Source of the DNA: Roseospira marina
GTDB lineage: Bacteria; Pseudomonadota; Alphaproteobacteria; Rhodospirillales; Rhodospirillaceae
Direction: 5' to 3'
Length of the DNA stretch: 64,000 bases
Assembly: GCF_014197855.1 (NCBI RefSeq)
Contig: NZ_JACIGJ010000001.1
Coordinates: 186,001 to 250,000, forward strand
The number at the start of each line of letters is the position of its first letter. Within the stretch, counting starts at the first letter, position 1. Under the pieces are notes generated by a model. The model worked only from the letters and a program-made list of their open reading frames with translations. It was not told where the DNA came from and did not search any database. The position numbers were made by a program, and so were the translations under genes. Below are positions 6,294 through 10,728 of this stretch, piece by piece.

Positions 6294-7280
6294 ATGGATA
6301 TCCAGGCCGAACCTCTCCTGGACAAGCCGGATACGACGGTTTCGGTGCGCGATGCGTTCGGCATCGATTCGGATATGACGGTGCCTGCGTTCGAGCGCCG
6401 GACCGAGCATGTGCCAGATTTCGATTCCAACTATCGTTTTGACCGGGACACCACGCTGGCGATTTTGGCCGGCTTCGCGCACAACCGTCGCGTGATGATC
6501 CAGGGCTACCACGGCACCGGCAAGTCCACCCACATCGAGCAGGTGGCTGCGCGCCTGAACTGGCCGTGCATCCGGGTGAACCTCGACAGCCACGTCAGCC
6601 GCATCGATCTGGTCGGCAAGGACGCCATCGTGTTGCGCGACGGCTTGCAGGTGACCGAGTTCCGCGAGGGGATTCTGCCGTGGGCGCTGCAACACGCCTG
6701 CGCCCTGGTGTTCGACGAGTACGATGCCGGCCGTCCCGACGTGATGTTCGTGATCCAGCGCGTGCTGGAGGTGGAGGGCCGCCTGACCCTTCTGGACCAG
6801 AACAAGGTGATCCGGCCGCACCCGTCGTTCCGCCTGTTCGCCACCGCCAACACGGTGGGCCTGGGCGACACGACGGGCCTGTATCACGGTACCCAGCAGA
6901 TCAATCAGGGCCAGATGGACCGGTGGAACATCGTCGCCACCCTGAACTATCTGGATCATGACGCCGAGGTGGAGATTTCCGCTGCCAAGCGGCCGGAGTA
7001 CGACACGCCCGAGGGGCGCAAGGTGCTCAGCCAGATGGTGGCCGTGGCCGATCTGACCCGCAACGGCTTCATCAACGGCGACATCTCGACCGTCATGAGC
7101 CCCCGGACGGTTCTGACCTGGGCGGAGAACGCCACCATCTTCGGCGATCTGGCCTTTGCGTTCCGCGTCACCTTCCTGAACAAGTGCGACGAGACCGAAC
7201 GCCCGTTGATCGCCGAGTATTATCAGCGGTGTTTCGGTGCCGAACTGCGGGAAAGCGCGGCCAACCTGACCGTGACCTGA
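6294..7280 (+). CDS. cobS: Aerobic cobaltochelatase subunit CobS
   Basis: AAA+ ATPase subunit of the CobNST chelatase, which inserts cobalt into hydrogenobyrinic acid a,c-diamide in aerobic cobalamin synthesis. It has 328 residues, the usual length. Walker A is GYHGTGKST (71-79), Walker B is ALVFDEYD and the sensor-1 region is [18 protein letters not shown]. The N-terminal [15 protein letters not shown] and [11 protein letters not shown] are typical of CobS. CobS works with CobT, normally encoded immediately downstream. Here the next gene is on the opposite strand and is urease-like, so cobT must lie elsewhere or be missing. Confidence 0.95.
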
Positions 7281-7281
7281 G

Positions 7282-7334
7282 GATCGGACGGGGCGCGGTG
7301 CGGCGTCCGTCCCGCGCCCCCCGAACGCCCGATC
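7282..7334. terminator. Long inverted repeat between convergent cobS and ureC-like gene
   Basis: An outer stem GATCGG/CCGATC (7282-7287, 7329-7334) and an inner stem GGGGCGCGG/CCGCGCCCC (7290-7298, 7312-7320) form a strong GC hairpin straddling the gap between two convergent genes. It overlaps the end of the ureC-like gene. There is no T-run, so it may be a factor-dependent or bidirectional transcript end. Confidence 0.45.
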
Positions 7335-8946
7335 AGAACAGGAAATACCGCTGGGTCAGCGGCCGCTCCGCCACCGGCGGGACCGTTAGGGGTGCGCCAT
7401 CAAGGCGGACCGTGCCCGTGGCGCGATCGACCTCCAGCGTCGGCCTAGCCGTGTTCAGGATCATGTCGGCCTTCGTGACCGAGCGACAGCCGGAGACCGG
7501 CACCAGGGTCTTGCGCAGGCCCAGCGTTCCCCCCAGCACCGTGGCAATGGCCTCATGCGAGACGAAGGTCACGCTGCTTTGGGTCAGCGCCCGCCCGAAG
7601 GCGCCGAAGCTCCGTCGCAGGACGGCCGGATCCCGGTCGGATGCCCTGGGCTGTGCGTCGCCGGGCCCGGCCAGGACAACGCTTCCGCCCTTGAGGACCA
7701 GGGCAGGTTTCGCGCCGAAGAACGCCGGGTCCCACAGCACCAGATCGGCAAGCCGCCCGGCGGCGATGGCGCCGACATGTTCCGCGACACCATGCGCCAG
7801 GGCCGGATTGATGGTGTACTTCGCCAGCGTGCGACGGACCCGGATGTTGTCGTTGTCGCCCCTCTCCTCCGGTAGGCGGCCGCGCAGCGCCTTCATGGCG
7901 TGGGTATTTTGCCACGCGCGGGCGATCAATCCGCCGTCCTCGACCGGCGCCTGGGCGCCCGACCCCAGGATCGATAGTGCGCCCATGTCATGAAGGATCG
8001 TCGCCGCGCCAAAGGCTCCGGTGGCGGCGCTTCCCGGCAGAACCGTTGCCGATTGGCAAAAGGCCAGGCCGTCCAGGGCCAGACCGTCGGACGCGGCGGG
8101 GCCGCCGCGCAGGGATGGGTCCGACACCACGGCATGCACGGTCTGGTCGCCAAACGCCTCCAGGCTGGTCTCAGCGAATCCGCTCTCGTTGAGGCGGTCG
8201 AGGTGGCAGACGACCTGCACATTCAGGCGCTCGGCCACGGACAAACAGCACGCGATGGCGCTCGGCGTGGCACCCCAGGCCTCATGCAGGGTCAGGCCGA
8301 TGGCGCCGGCGGAAATCTGCTCCTCCAGGGCCCCGGGCCGGCTCGCGCTGCCTTTGCCATAGAAGCCGAGGTTCACGGGCAGGCCATCCGCCGCCTGGAG
8401 CATGCGCCACAGATGCCAGGGGCCGGGCGTGCTGGCGCCCGCGCGGGAGCCGGCGGTCGGTCCCGTGCCGCCGCCCAGCATCGTCGTGATGCCGGAGGCC
8501 AAAGCGTCGTCGATCTGGCGCGGGTCGAGCCACGTCACCAGCGCATCGACCCCGCCCGGCGTGACGAGGCGGCCGGCCGCATCGACGATCTCAGTCCCCG
8601 GGCCGATGACGATGTCGATATCCGGCTGGGTGTCCGGATTGCCGGCGGCGCCGATAGCCTCGATACGGCCGTCCTTGATTCCGATATCCGCCTTTTCGAT
8701 GCGCTCGGCATCCAGGATCAGGGCGTTTGCGATCACCGTGTCGACGGCCGCCTGTCCGCGCCATGTCTGGGATTGCCCCATGCCGTCGCGAACCACACCG
8801 CCGGCGCCGACGGTCACTTCCTCGCCGGGGGTGGTCCGGTCGCGCTCGACCTCAATGACGAGGTCGGTGTCGGCCAGCCGGACGCGGTCCCCCACCGTGG
8901 GGCCGTACTGCGCGGCATAGGCGCCGCGATCCATCACGTGGGCCAT
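7333..8946 (-). CDS. Urease alpha-subunit homologue lacking the nickel active site (probable pseudo-enzyme)
   Basis: Clearly homologous to UreC along its full length: YGPTVGDRVRLADTDL at the start, VRDGMGQ, ADIGIKDGRIEAIG, GITTMLGGGTGPTAG, GDNDNIRVRR, AKYTINPALAHG, DPAFFGAKP and the C-terminal QRYFLF. The active site is gone. The two His of the HIHW motif are Leu136 and Thr138, the carbamylated Lys of GLKIHEDWG is Thr219, the HAPD His is lost and the SSDSQ Asp is replaced (GSGAQ). About 40 residues that carry the catalytic flap and CHHLD are deleted. Only His221 and His248 remain of the catalytic set. The length is 537 instead of about 567 residues. The frame is open with no stops, so this is not ordinary decay. 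It cannot be a normal urease. Homology is certain, function unknown. Confidence 0.85.
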   Translation of the reverse strand: MAHVMDRGAYAAQYGPTVGDRVRLADTDLVIEVERDRTTPGEEVTVGAGGVVRDGMGQSQTWRGQAAVDTVIANALILDAERIEKADIGIKDGRIEAIGAAGNPDTQPDIDIVIGPGTEIVDAAGRLVTPGGVDALVTWLDPRQIDDALASGITTMLGGGTGPTAGSRAGASTPGPWHLWRMLQAADGLPVNLGFYGKGSASRPGALEEQISAGAIGLTLHEAWGATPSAIACCLSVAERLNVQVVCHLDRLNESGFAETSLEAFGDQTVHAVVSDPSLRGGPAASDGLALDGLAFCQSATVLPGSAATGAFGAATILHDMGALSILGSGAQAPVEDGGLIARAWQNTHAMKALRGRLPEERGDNDNIRVRRTLAKYTINPALAHGVAEHVGAIAAGRLADLVLWDPAFFGAKPALVLKGGSVVLAGPGDAQPRASDRDPAVLRRSFGAFGRALTQSSVTFVSHEAIATVLGGTLGLRKTLVPVSGCRSVTKADMILNTARPTLEVDRATGTVRLDGAPLTVPPVAERPLTQRYFLF

Positions 8947-8950
8947 GCGT

Positions 8951-9577
8951 TCAGTCCTCCACCGCGCCGTCGACCAGTCCCCGGAACCCCGTCACCACAT
9001 GCCGGCCGCCGTAGGCCACCAGCGCTACGGTCCGCGATTCGCCGGGATCGAACCGTACCCGCGCGCCGGCCGGGACATCCAGGCGGTATCCGCGCGCGGC
9101 GTCGCGGTCGAAGGACAGCGCCGGATTGGTTTCGGCGAAGTGATAGTGACTGCCGACCTCGATCGGACGGTCGCCCGTGTTCTTGACGGTCAGCGTGCGG
9201 GTGGGCCGGTCCGCGTTCAGGGTCACGGGGTCGCGGGCGGGGATCACCTGACCGGTCCGGACCCGCGCGTCACTGGTGCGAATCGGATTCCGAATCGTGA
9301 CCACCTTGACGCCATCGGGAAACAGGGCGTCGATCTGAAGGGTCTCGATCATCTCGGGGACACCGTCCATGACTTGATCGCGGGTCAGGACCGACGCCGC
9401 AGTGGCGGCTGCCTCGGCGATCGAGCGGCCGTCGCGGGCGGCCTCCGTGACGGCATCCGAGATCAGCGCGACGGCCTCCGGGTGATTCAGAAGCACGCCT
9501 CGGTCCAGGCGCCGCCGCGCGACCAGCGCGGCCATCGCCACCATCAGCTTGTCGGTTTCGCGTGGCGTGAGTTTCAT
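8951..9577 (-). CDS. Fused urease gamma/beta-subunit homologue (UreA-UreB fusion)
   Basis: One 208-residue chain joins the two small urease subunits. Residues 1-100 match UreA ([67 protein letters not shown]). From about residue 110 it matches UreB ([63 protein letters not shown]). The structural motifs are well kept. The ATG at 9577 follows a strong AGGAGGGG site, which rejects upstream starts. It ends 4 bp before the ureC-like gene, so the two form an operon. No ureD, ureE, ureF or ureG maturation genes are near, consistent with a partner that no longer binds nickel. Confidence 0.88.
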
Positions 9578-9942
9578 CGGCAACCCCTCCTTCACCCCAT
9601 GGCCTCCCTCCGCGGCACCCGCGCCGGGGAGGTGATCCCCGACGTTCCGCAGACGGCCGGACACCGGACCGACGAAATCCCACACCGCGCGCCGCTGTCC
9701 GCGCATCGGGGGGATCGTCCGGAGATCGTGTCGCAACGGAACGCGATGAGAGTGGATTGGGGGCGCGCCGACAGCGCCCGGCGGACAGAACGGTCCCGCG
9801 CGGCCGCCGGGGTCTGGTCAGCCTTCAGCCATGCCCGTCCGCGACGGTCATGGACCCGGCACGCGAGCCATCCGCAAACGATAATCTGTTTTGCAGGTGC
9901 GAGCTACTAGGGAGCACCGCAAAACGTCGGCGTTGGTCCGTA
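9578..9942. promoter_or_regulatory. Intergenic region between cheZ and the urease-like operon
   Basis: Both flanking genes are on the minus strand, so this should hold the promoter of the urease-like pair and the 3' end of cheZ. An inverted repeat, TTTTGCAGGTGC (9889-9900) with GCACCGCAAAA (9914-9924), lies 18 bp past the cheZ stop and could form a stable hairpin ending the cheZ transcript. There is no flanking T-run. I cannot assign -10 or -35 boxes with confidence. Confidence 0.4.
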
Positions 9943-10728
9943 TTATCCGAACAGGGCGTCGATTTCGTCCTGAGATATGCCTTTATTGCCGGTTTGCGGG
10001 CCGTTCAGCAGGTCGCGGTCCCGTTGGGCGGCGGTCTTCTCGGCTTCCGCAACCGCGAGATCCTGCGTGGCCGTCAGGAATCCGTCGCGGCCCCAGATTT
10101 CCATCATCCGGTCAATGCGGTCTTCTATGTATTTCATCGCGTTCACAACTTTTGTGATGCGCTGCCCGGTGAGGTCCTGGAAATTGCAGTGCTCGAAAAT
10201 GCCCATCAGGCGTTCCTGGATGTCATCAGCCAGGCCGCGAACATACCCGTCTTCGTTATTCGATTGAATCTCGGCGACCATGGCGGACACCGTTTCCGTG
10301 ATGTCCAGGATGCCGTTGGTGGCGCCCTCGGTGGCCCCGACGATGGCGTCAAGCTCCTGCTCCATGTCCGTCAGGCGGTCACCCTCCGGGCGCTGGTCGC
10401 GGAGCCGCGCGATCTCGACCTTGGTATCCTCGATGCTTCGGGCAAGGGCGACGATCTCCATGCGGAGGATCTGCGCTTCCTCTATCCGGGCCCGCACCGG
10501 GTCTGGCAGTTCCTTCGGATCGGGTTCGGGCGGCGGCGGCGGCTCCGGGATCTGCTGCGCTTCAATCCGCGCGTCCAAGGCGTCCAGGCGATGCCCGAGC
10601 CGGTCGATGGCCTTAAGGATGGTGGCCGTGTCCCGATCACCGTGGACGTCCGGTCCGCCAAGCGGGCCGGCGTGGGGGGACGGAGCACGGAACCGCTCGA
10701 CGGAGAAAGGGCGGCGGGAGGTGGCCAT
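9943..10728 (-). CDS. cheZ: CheZ-family chemotaxis phosphatase
   Basis: Protein of 261 residues. A low-complexity N-terminus with a proline run (EPPPPPEPD) leads into a long helical region. It contains the CheZ signature EHCNFQDLTGQRITKV, in which Asp185 and Gln189 correspond to the Asp and catalytic Gln that promote CheY-P dephosphorylation. The last ten residues (SQDEIDALFG) resemble the CheY-binding peptide at the N-terminus of FliM and should dock CheY. CheZ ends the chemotaxis signal by removing phosphate from CheY. No other chemotaxis gene is nearby. The start is uncertain and could lie further in. Confidence 0.88.
   Translation of the reverse strand: MATSRRPFSVERFRAPSPHAGPLGGPDVHGDRDTATILKAIDRLGHRLDALDARIEAQQIPEPPPPPEPDPKELPDPVRARIEEAQILRMEIVALARSIEDTKVEIARLRDQRPEGDRLTDMEQELDAIVGATEGATNGILDITETVSAMVAEIQSNNEDGYVRGLADDIQERLMGIFEHCNFQDLTGQRITKVVNAMKYIEDRIDRMMEIWGRDGFLTATQDLAVAEAEKTAAQRDRDLLNGPQTGNKGISQDEIDALFG

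Follow-up and report, generated by a model that had tools for sequence, protein, structure and literature searches.

A urease alpha subunit gene that has lost most of its active site was found in the window, the 64,000-nucleotide stretch of DNA analysed here. The gene, together with four further degenerate UreC genes from other genomes (G143, G300, G018 and G301; the window genome is G000), is designated UreC*. Judged from sequence, UreC* is a real, unusual pseudoenzyme variant, and its function is left to a proposal of binding or scaffolding: we consider it moderately probable that a pseudo-urease, catalytically dead for urea, has been kept in an assembly with UreAB and serves for binding or as a scaffold. 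This proposal draws on the loss of the site, the predicted retention of the fold, the kept partner genes, a dN/dS below 1, the recurrence in other genomes and the failure to find accessory proteins in the genome. The genes of the locus are as follows.

7333..8946, minus strand: UreC*, degenerate alpha subunit of urease, 537 aa in an open frame (ORF, Pfam, NCBIfam, alignment to Klebsiella-type UreC)
8951..9577, minus strand: UreA-UreB fusion of 208 aa that ends 4 bases upstream of UreC* (gamma and beta domains recognised by Pfam)
9943..10728, minus strand: CheZ-like protein, same strand as and upstream of UreAB, with the same order in G143 (Pfam, synteny)
6294..7280, plus strand: cobS, convergent neighbour (Pfam, NCBIfam)

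The 537 uninterrupted codons claimed in an earlier sequence-only reading of this DNA exist, and the UreC* gene runs from ATG to stop on the minus strand (8946 to 7333); the plus strand of the same interval contains stops in the frame shown. The protein matched Pfam Urease_alpha with an E value of 4.8e-46 (above chance) and passed the general urease models PF00449 and NF009686, reaching 643.1 bits for the latter, a looser subfamily with a cut-off of 354. For the NCBIfam equivalog TIGR01792, its 593.8 bits lay below the 680-bit cut-off. The nearest named records are for the most part ureases of Alphaproteobacteria. The open frame had also been taken as a sign of selection. The frame is real, but by itself it is weak evidence in a sequence of 67-70% GC: in a simulation of neutral change at 0.15 hits per site, 12-35% of the runs ended without a stop, and the stop-free frame was dropped as proof of selection. 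Sequencing error or a local oddity was ruled out by the syntenic orthologue in G143 and three more genes with differing losses; an orthologue with losses of its own is a strong argument against sequencing error.

We take the six urease metal ligands to be H134, H136, K217, H246, H272 and D360 (Klebsiella numbering), D221 to be a residue of the catalytic dyad, and H320 to be a catalytic residue on the flap. Alignment to Klebsiella-type UreC revealed the changes H134L, H136T, K217T, H272V and D360G in the window UreC*, by which five of the six ligands are gone and H246 is the sole one left. Among the catalytic positions, H219 remains and D221 is Ala. In comparison with eight functional ureases of the same family, 39 residues are deleted, and C319, H320 and R336 are removed with them. 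The codons concerned were placed by alignment.

8533..8541, minus strand: Leu136-Val137-Thr138, replacing ligands H134 and H136
8278..8292, minus strand: Thr219 (K217 lost) to His221 (H219 kept) to Ala223 (D221 lost)
8203..8205, minus strand: His248, equivalent to H246, the lone surviving metal ligand
8125..8127, minus strand: Val274, replacing ligand H272
8014..8028, minus strand: 39-residue flap deletion, junction approximate, with C319, H320 and R336 missing
7957..7959, minus strand: Gly330, replacing ligand D360

Since the titles of solved urease structures include variants at positions 134, 217, 219, 221, 319 and 320, these are studied active-site positions. Much of the pattern had already been read from the sequence alone: Leu136, Thr138, Thr219, the loss of the SSDSQ Asp and the retention of His221 and His248 agree with the alignment, as does a flap deletion including CHHLD, then put at about 40 residues. 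The losses listed in that reading are real, but H272 to Val and D221 to Ala had been overlooked; the HAPD His is gone as claimed (H280 is Leu here), but is not among the six residues that we take to be metal ligands. The presence of intact ligands elsewhere in the chain was ruled out by the alignments. With ligands and flap missing, urea hydrolysis by the urease mechanism would not be expected. A comparison with 152 further distinct UreC frames found the full set of six ligands in 148; the remaining four frames are pieces of one genome with masked stretches.

Conservation outside the site was assessed over 200 near-invariant columns defined from 148 functional UreC rows, 124 of which are retained in the window UreC*. 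From the N to the C terminus, the retained columns amount to 36/43 (residues 1-130), 10/14, 12/15 (161-215), 20/35, 2/31 (301-345, the flap), 8/15, 19/24 (371-425), 10/15 and 7/8 (481-567). Losses cluster in the active site and the flap. The N-terminal domain, the first barrel half and the C-terminal part have been preserved, as have the partner subunits; the count for residues 1-130 bears out the earlier claim of well-kept motifs far from the site. Active-site columns were kept in 3/12 cases versus 121/188 elsewhere (p 0.011), and without the flap in 3/9 versus 119/159 (p 0.014). The corresponding p values for the other UreC*, with those outside the flap in brackets, were 0.15 (0.033) for G143, 0.12 (0.23) for G300, 0.032 (0.059) for G018 and 0.0096 (0.011) for G301, the contrast being clear in the window, G018 and G301 and unclear in G143 and G300. 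The regional profile of these four genes is similar to that of the window gene, with more of the flap retained in G143 (13/31). The functional rows have 257 columns with an identity of at least 95%: 119 of these are retained by every one of the four complete UreC*, and 34 have been lost from all five genes, with 18 of the losses falling within 300-345. Columns 44, 47 and 49 (Klebsiella numbering), whose identity among true ureases is at least 95%, are also lost in all five UreC* and perhaps mark sites touched by the flap or by accessory proteins; the RDGMGQSQ stretch just after them is invariant.

An AlphaFold2 model of the window UreC* had a mean pLDDT of 81.9 and a pTM of 0.89, confidence being low at 277-288, at 431-438 and in several other short segments. 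Its best PDB match was the urease alpha chain 1a5l_C (TM 0.92 both ways, 50% identity). The model supports, but does not prove, retention of the urease alpha fold, as the input alignment held 31 other ureases and may pull the model towards urease.

The window genome, listed as 98.57% complete, gave one match only to PF00449, namely UreC*. Profile searches of this genome found no second ureC, no UreD and no UreF, and the best score for the UreG model was 28.1 bits, far under the cut-off of 204.2. The sequence-only reading had raised both a second complete urease cluster and a role of UreC* as a regulator of the true urease; neither is borne out in this genome. Because no true urease was found there, regulation of a resident urease is unlikely. 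More generally, binding to UreAB or to accessory proteins could, for example, make UreC* a regulator or decoy of a true urease, and G143, which encodes an intact urease with UreG and UreF besides its UreC*, would suit such a role. This reading is, however, highly improbable in view of the window genome and of G018 (listed as 100% complete), G300 and G301 (both listed as 80%), in which no UreF was found and no UreG over the cut-off; in G018, no other UreC was found either. The missing accessory genes alone would not exclude activity, because a cited paper reports, in its title, a B. subtilis urease that is active although no accessory proteins are known for it.

Relatives were searched in 73 genomes of the family, in 317 genomes of the order and in 385 genomes drawn from the class. 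A UreC match at E 1e-60 or better was obtained in 129 of the 317 genomes of the order. Among the matches listed, whole-model spans were 1,701-1,710 bases save in the UreC* genomes, where they were 1,611 (window), 1,692 (G143), 1,494 (G300) and 1,452 bases (G018); in G301, the contig ends inside the gene. Homologues with the same kind of loss, which the sequence-only reading had proposed to look for, do exist: the five UreC* genes come from five genomes of four genera, all in the family of the window, with a patchy distribution (5/73 genomes of the family, 2/6 of the genus). Apart from partial class-level matches in G385, G393, G423, G601 and G625, no UreC*-like gene was found outside the family among the 317 order genomes or the 385 class genomes. 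Most genes were judged here by match span, ligands being compared in the 152 frames alone, whereby copies with point losses only could escape.

In G143, of the same genus, UreC* lies at the syntenic place in the order CheZ, UreA, UreB, UreC*, and synteny extends past CheZ to Gpm, M23 and CtpA. In the remaining genomes of the genus (G130, G155, G230 and G305), no urease genes were found beside the CheZ gene; G130 and G155 gave no UreC match, and the true UreC of G230 and G305 is located elsewhere. UreA, UreB and UreC* are consecutive in G300 and G301. In G018, UreC* stands isolated, and UreA-UreB are found on another contig between hydantoinase B-like and CheZ-like genes. At the G301 contig end (L138:1-200), a piece of the same gene matches in reverse, beyond which the UreC* tail is unaligned, reflecting either an assembly artefact or a rearrangement. 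The proteins encoded directly upstream of UreA in G300 (L137:6403-7593, 396 aa) and of UreC* in G018 (L136:1-1443, at least 480 aa) had no family match of note.

The residues at positions 134, 136, 217, 246, 272 and 360 read LTTHVG in the window, NHKQHD in G143, HHIH-- in G300, HARHH- in G018 and HNEHHG in G301, so the ligand set is different in each of the five. This diversity bears on the idea of new chemistry, in which the urease barrel would act on a different amide or imide, using a single metal or no metal at all. H219, A167 and W222 are retained in all five UreC*, the Glu at 217 of G301 could bridge metals, the G018 UreA overlaps the end of the hydantoinase B-like gene by ATGA, and a PyrC paralogue without the conserved zinc-binding residues displays activity according to a passage of PMC2770081. 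Against this stand the ligand sets, of which no two agree, and the 19 novel residues common to both UreC* lineages, none of which is His, Asp, Glu or Cys. The "new amidohydrolase-like activity" offered in the sequence-only reading thus gains no support, and we regard such an enzyme as improbable. Of the three roles named there, that of a scaffold is the best left, by elimination and with no partner found; that of a regulator is unsupported here.

No internal stop was present in any of the five UreC* (G301 being cut by the contig end), and across 20 length changes, some shared by descent, every gene remains one frame; random decay with stops, which would have spoken against a retained protein, is not what the homologues display. 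Branch values of dN/dS were 0.36 for the window UreC* (bootstrap 0.26-0.48) and 0.21 for that of G143 (0.14-0.31), well under 1, as calculated by the Nei-Gojobori method on a three-row tree with the true G143 ureC at branch dS of 0.4-0.5, which is not a codon-model test. These branches start at the window/G143 split, and both copies lack H134 and D221. The remaining branch (stem plus true ureC) had a dN/dS of 0.60 (0.39-1.02), a value compatible with an early phase of relaxed constraint.

Pairwise comparison of the window with G143 gave a dN/dS of 0.30 for UreC*, 0.38 for the UreB part and 0.26 for the UreA part; the neighbours had values of 0.26 (CheZ), 0.12 (Gpm) and 0.08 (CtpA). By region, the UreC* value was 0.22 (1-131), 0.17 (132-215), 0.44 (216-300), 0.48 (301-372), 0.29 (373-430), 0.44 (431-480) and 0.28 (481-570). 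The G300/G018 pair of UreC* was at about 0.20 (0.196), and comparison with the true G143 ureC gave 0.43 for the window and 0.39 for the G143 copy. True ureC had a dN/dS of 0.05-0.06 within the genus and 0.21 between genera (G143/G167). Since the 0.30 of UreC* is several times the value of the genus true ureC, though nearer to that of true ureC between genera, its constraint is relaxed in comparison with the genus true urease, yet it is far from neutral.

This relaxation could also mean that UreC* is a slowly decaying pseudogene, one of two redundant copies that is no longer functional and in which no stop has yet arisen in a GC-rich genome. The pairwise 0.30 against 0.05-0.06, the weakness of missing stops as evidence, the patchy distribution and the accessory genes that were not found are in line with it, and the long branch of the window row (1.0 versus 0.22 for the G143 orthologue) would fit late decay. 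However, the upper bounds of the branch dN/dS (0.48 and 0.31), the retention of UreA and UreB, the five genes without internal stops and the in-frame nature of the 20 length changes argue against decay. Truncated ureC genes of G183 and G309 also look different from UreC*, with the N-terminus gone and the remaining ligands intact. We conclude that slow decay is unlikely. Neither internal stops, nor frameshifts, nor a dN/dS near 1, as would characterise a pseudogene, were found in UreC*; what was found is the loss of catalytic residues and purifying selection afterwards, as in a pseudoenzyme. Selection for a non-urease role, as suggested from the sequence alone, is supported by the branch dN/dS, by the retained UreA/UreB and by the recurrence in five genomes of four genera.

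The truncated genes themselves (G183, L141:8244-9374; G309, L143:1710-2663) adjoin UreF, with UreG recognised by eye, and represent a different, ordinary-looking urease decay in the same family.

Genes for UreA and UreB are present in all five UreC* genomes, and in G018 they are retained yet unlinked from UreC*. Scored in four genomes (G300 fell under the length filter), the near-invariant columns kept were 25/33 (window), 33/33 (G143), 29/33 (G301) and 28/33 (G018) for UreA, and 27/29, 27/29, 26/29 and 28/29, in the same order, for UreB. The score of the window UreA, the least conserved of the four, counts against the proposed assembly. In the window, both domains are encoded in a single open frame with a short linker; its start was assigned to the ATG of MKLTPRE, the point from which the sequence resembles UreA, and not to the longer start at 9736 given by the ORF lister. 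Separate genes encode UreA and UreB in G143, as they do in the genus's three true urease clusters. The fusion was rejected as a mark of UreC*, as it is absent from the other four UreC* genomes and occurs with true ureases, being seen in 17 of 163 other loci with both genes, Helicobacter among the 17; several loci can derive from one genome.

No genes besides the Ure genes lie between the CheZ-like gene and cobS in the window; at the corresponding place in G143, cobS was not found and an AIM24-family gene stands there. A CheZ-like neighbour of UreAB occurs in both UreC* lines (window, G143 and G018). In G018 (L164, C62, 6146-8355), the UreA start that overlaps the end of the hydantoinase B-like gene is followed by UreB and then by the CheZ-like gene. 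The adjacency in the genus may be passive, because G130 and G155 have the CheZ-like gene next to that for phosphoglycerate mutase and no urease genes there; the CheZ-like neighbour is a lead only.

The number of origins was approached with several trees. In the first, with same-genus true ureases included and flap columns kept, the five UreC* fell on one side (87/84), and in the second, from which these ureases were absent, four UreC* did so (94/98). In a UreA+UreB tree, the copies of the window and G143 join true ureases of the genus (97/96), and the remaining three group together (94/85). The fuller tree, with same-genus ureases, UreA and UreB included and the flap removed, likewise placed the window and G143 copies beside the genus true ureases and the other three UreC* in a group of their own (99/97). 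A single ancient clade of five UreC* is disfavoured by this fuller tree; one clade was still not rejected by the AU test (p-AU 0.31 for UreA+B, 0.24 for UreC and 0.22 for all three). Two origins over one are thus favoured, not shown. It is possible, if on balance doubtful, that ureases turned non-catalytic at least twice in one alphaproteobacterial family (in the genus of the window and in the ancestor of three other genera), both lines keeping UreA/UreB and losing flap and active site in parallel, to give a conserved pseudo-urease body. If this is true, the CheZ-like neighbour in both lines would hint at a link to motility signalling.

For the preferred reading, a pseudo-urease kept for binding or scaffolding, the UreA+UreB tree suggests that the lineage of the genus came to carry the urease structural genes in two copies. 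The alpha subunit may first have lost the dyad residue D221 and the intact flap, and then the metal ligands stepwise, the rest of UreC* staying, it appears, under purifying selection together with UreA and UreB. UreAB and UreC* would still form the urease-type (alpha-beta-gamma)3 body, and this trimeric body would be a non-catalytic binding or scaffold unit, not an enzyme. If so, surveys of genomes and metagenomes that go by the ureC sequence alone overestimate the capacity for urease activity, as UreC* passes PF00449 and NF009686. The natural series of active-site losses, partial in G143 and nearly complete in the window, would then probe the urease body without catalysis.

Among known systems, UreC* shares fold, domain order and the UreA and UreB partners with Klebsiella aerogenes-type UreC (EC 3.5.1.5), and differs from it in the loss of five of six ligands, of D221 and of the H320 flap, and in that no accessory genes were found. 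The iron urease UreA2B2 of Helicobacter mustelae keeps an active metal site, whereas UreC* does not. It is likewise a second, variant urease lineage and a fold match (3qga). CRMP2/DPYSL2 is a non-catalytic, oligomeric amidohydrolase fold with a binding role; it matched the UreC* model weakly (TMq 0.45-0.49) and, unlike UreC*, is an animal protein of another subfamily with no urease subunits. The second Brucella cluster, ure2, is transcribed and codes for no active urease, as stated in the abstract of PMC2868824; it stands beside the active ure1, whereas no true urease was found in the window genome. Ureolysis-independent moonlighting is described for canatoxin and Proteus urease in passages of PMC8268090, in which, unlike UreC*, the Proteus urease is still an active enzyme. 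Among the matches listed from open PubMed Central text, none described a urease that had lost its active site and been retained along with its partner subunits, and the phrase "pseudo-urease" gave no match in that text, most subscription papers lying outside it. Amidohydrolase-superfamily pseudoenzymes are already known (PyrC', CRMPs), and what would be new here is a urease pseudoenzyme with retained partner subunits. The inactive dihydroorotase PyrC' of Pseudomonas is required for aspartate transcarbamoylase assembly, according to a title cited in PMC2770081; as passages of that paper have it, this member of the same superfamily is a paralogue without metal-binding residues that is kept for complex assembly. 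PyrC' differs from UreC* in that it is not a urease and its partner enzyme is known; it is the closest documented precedent for the proposed scaffold role of UreC*.
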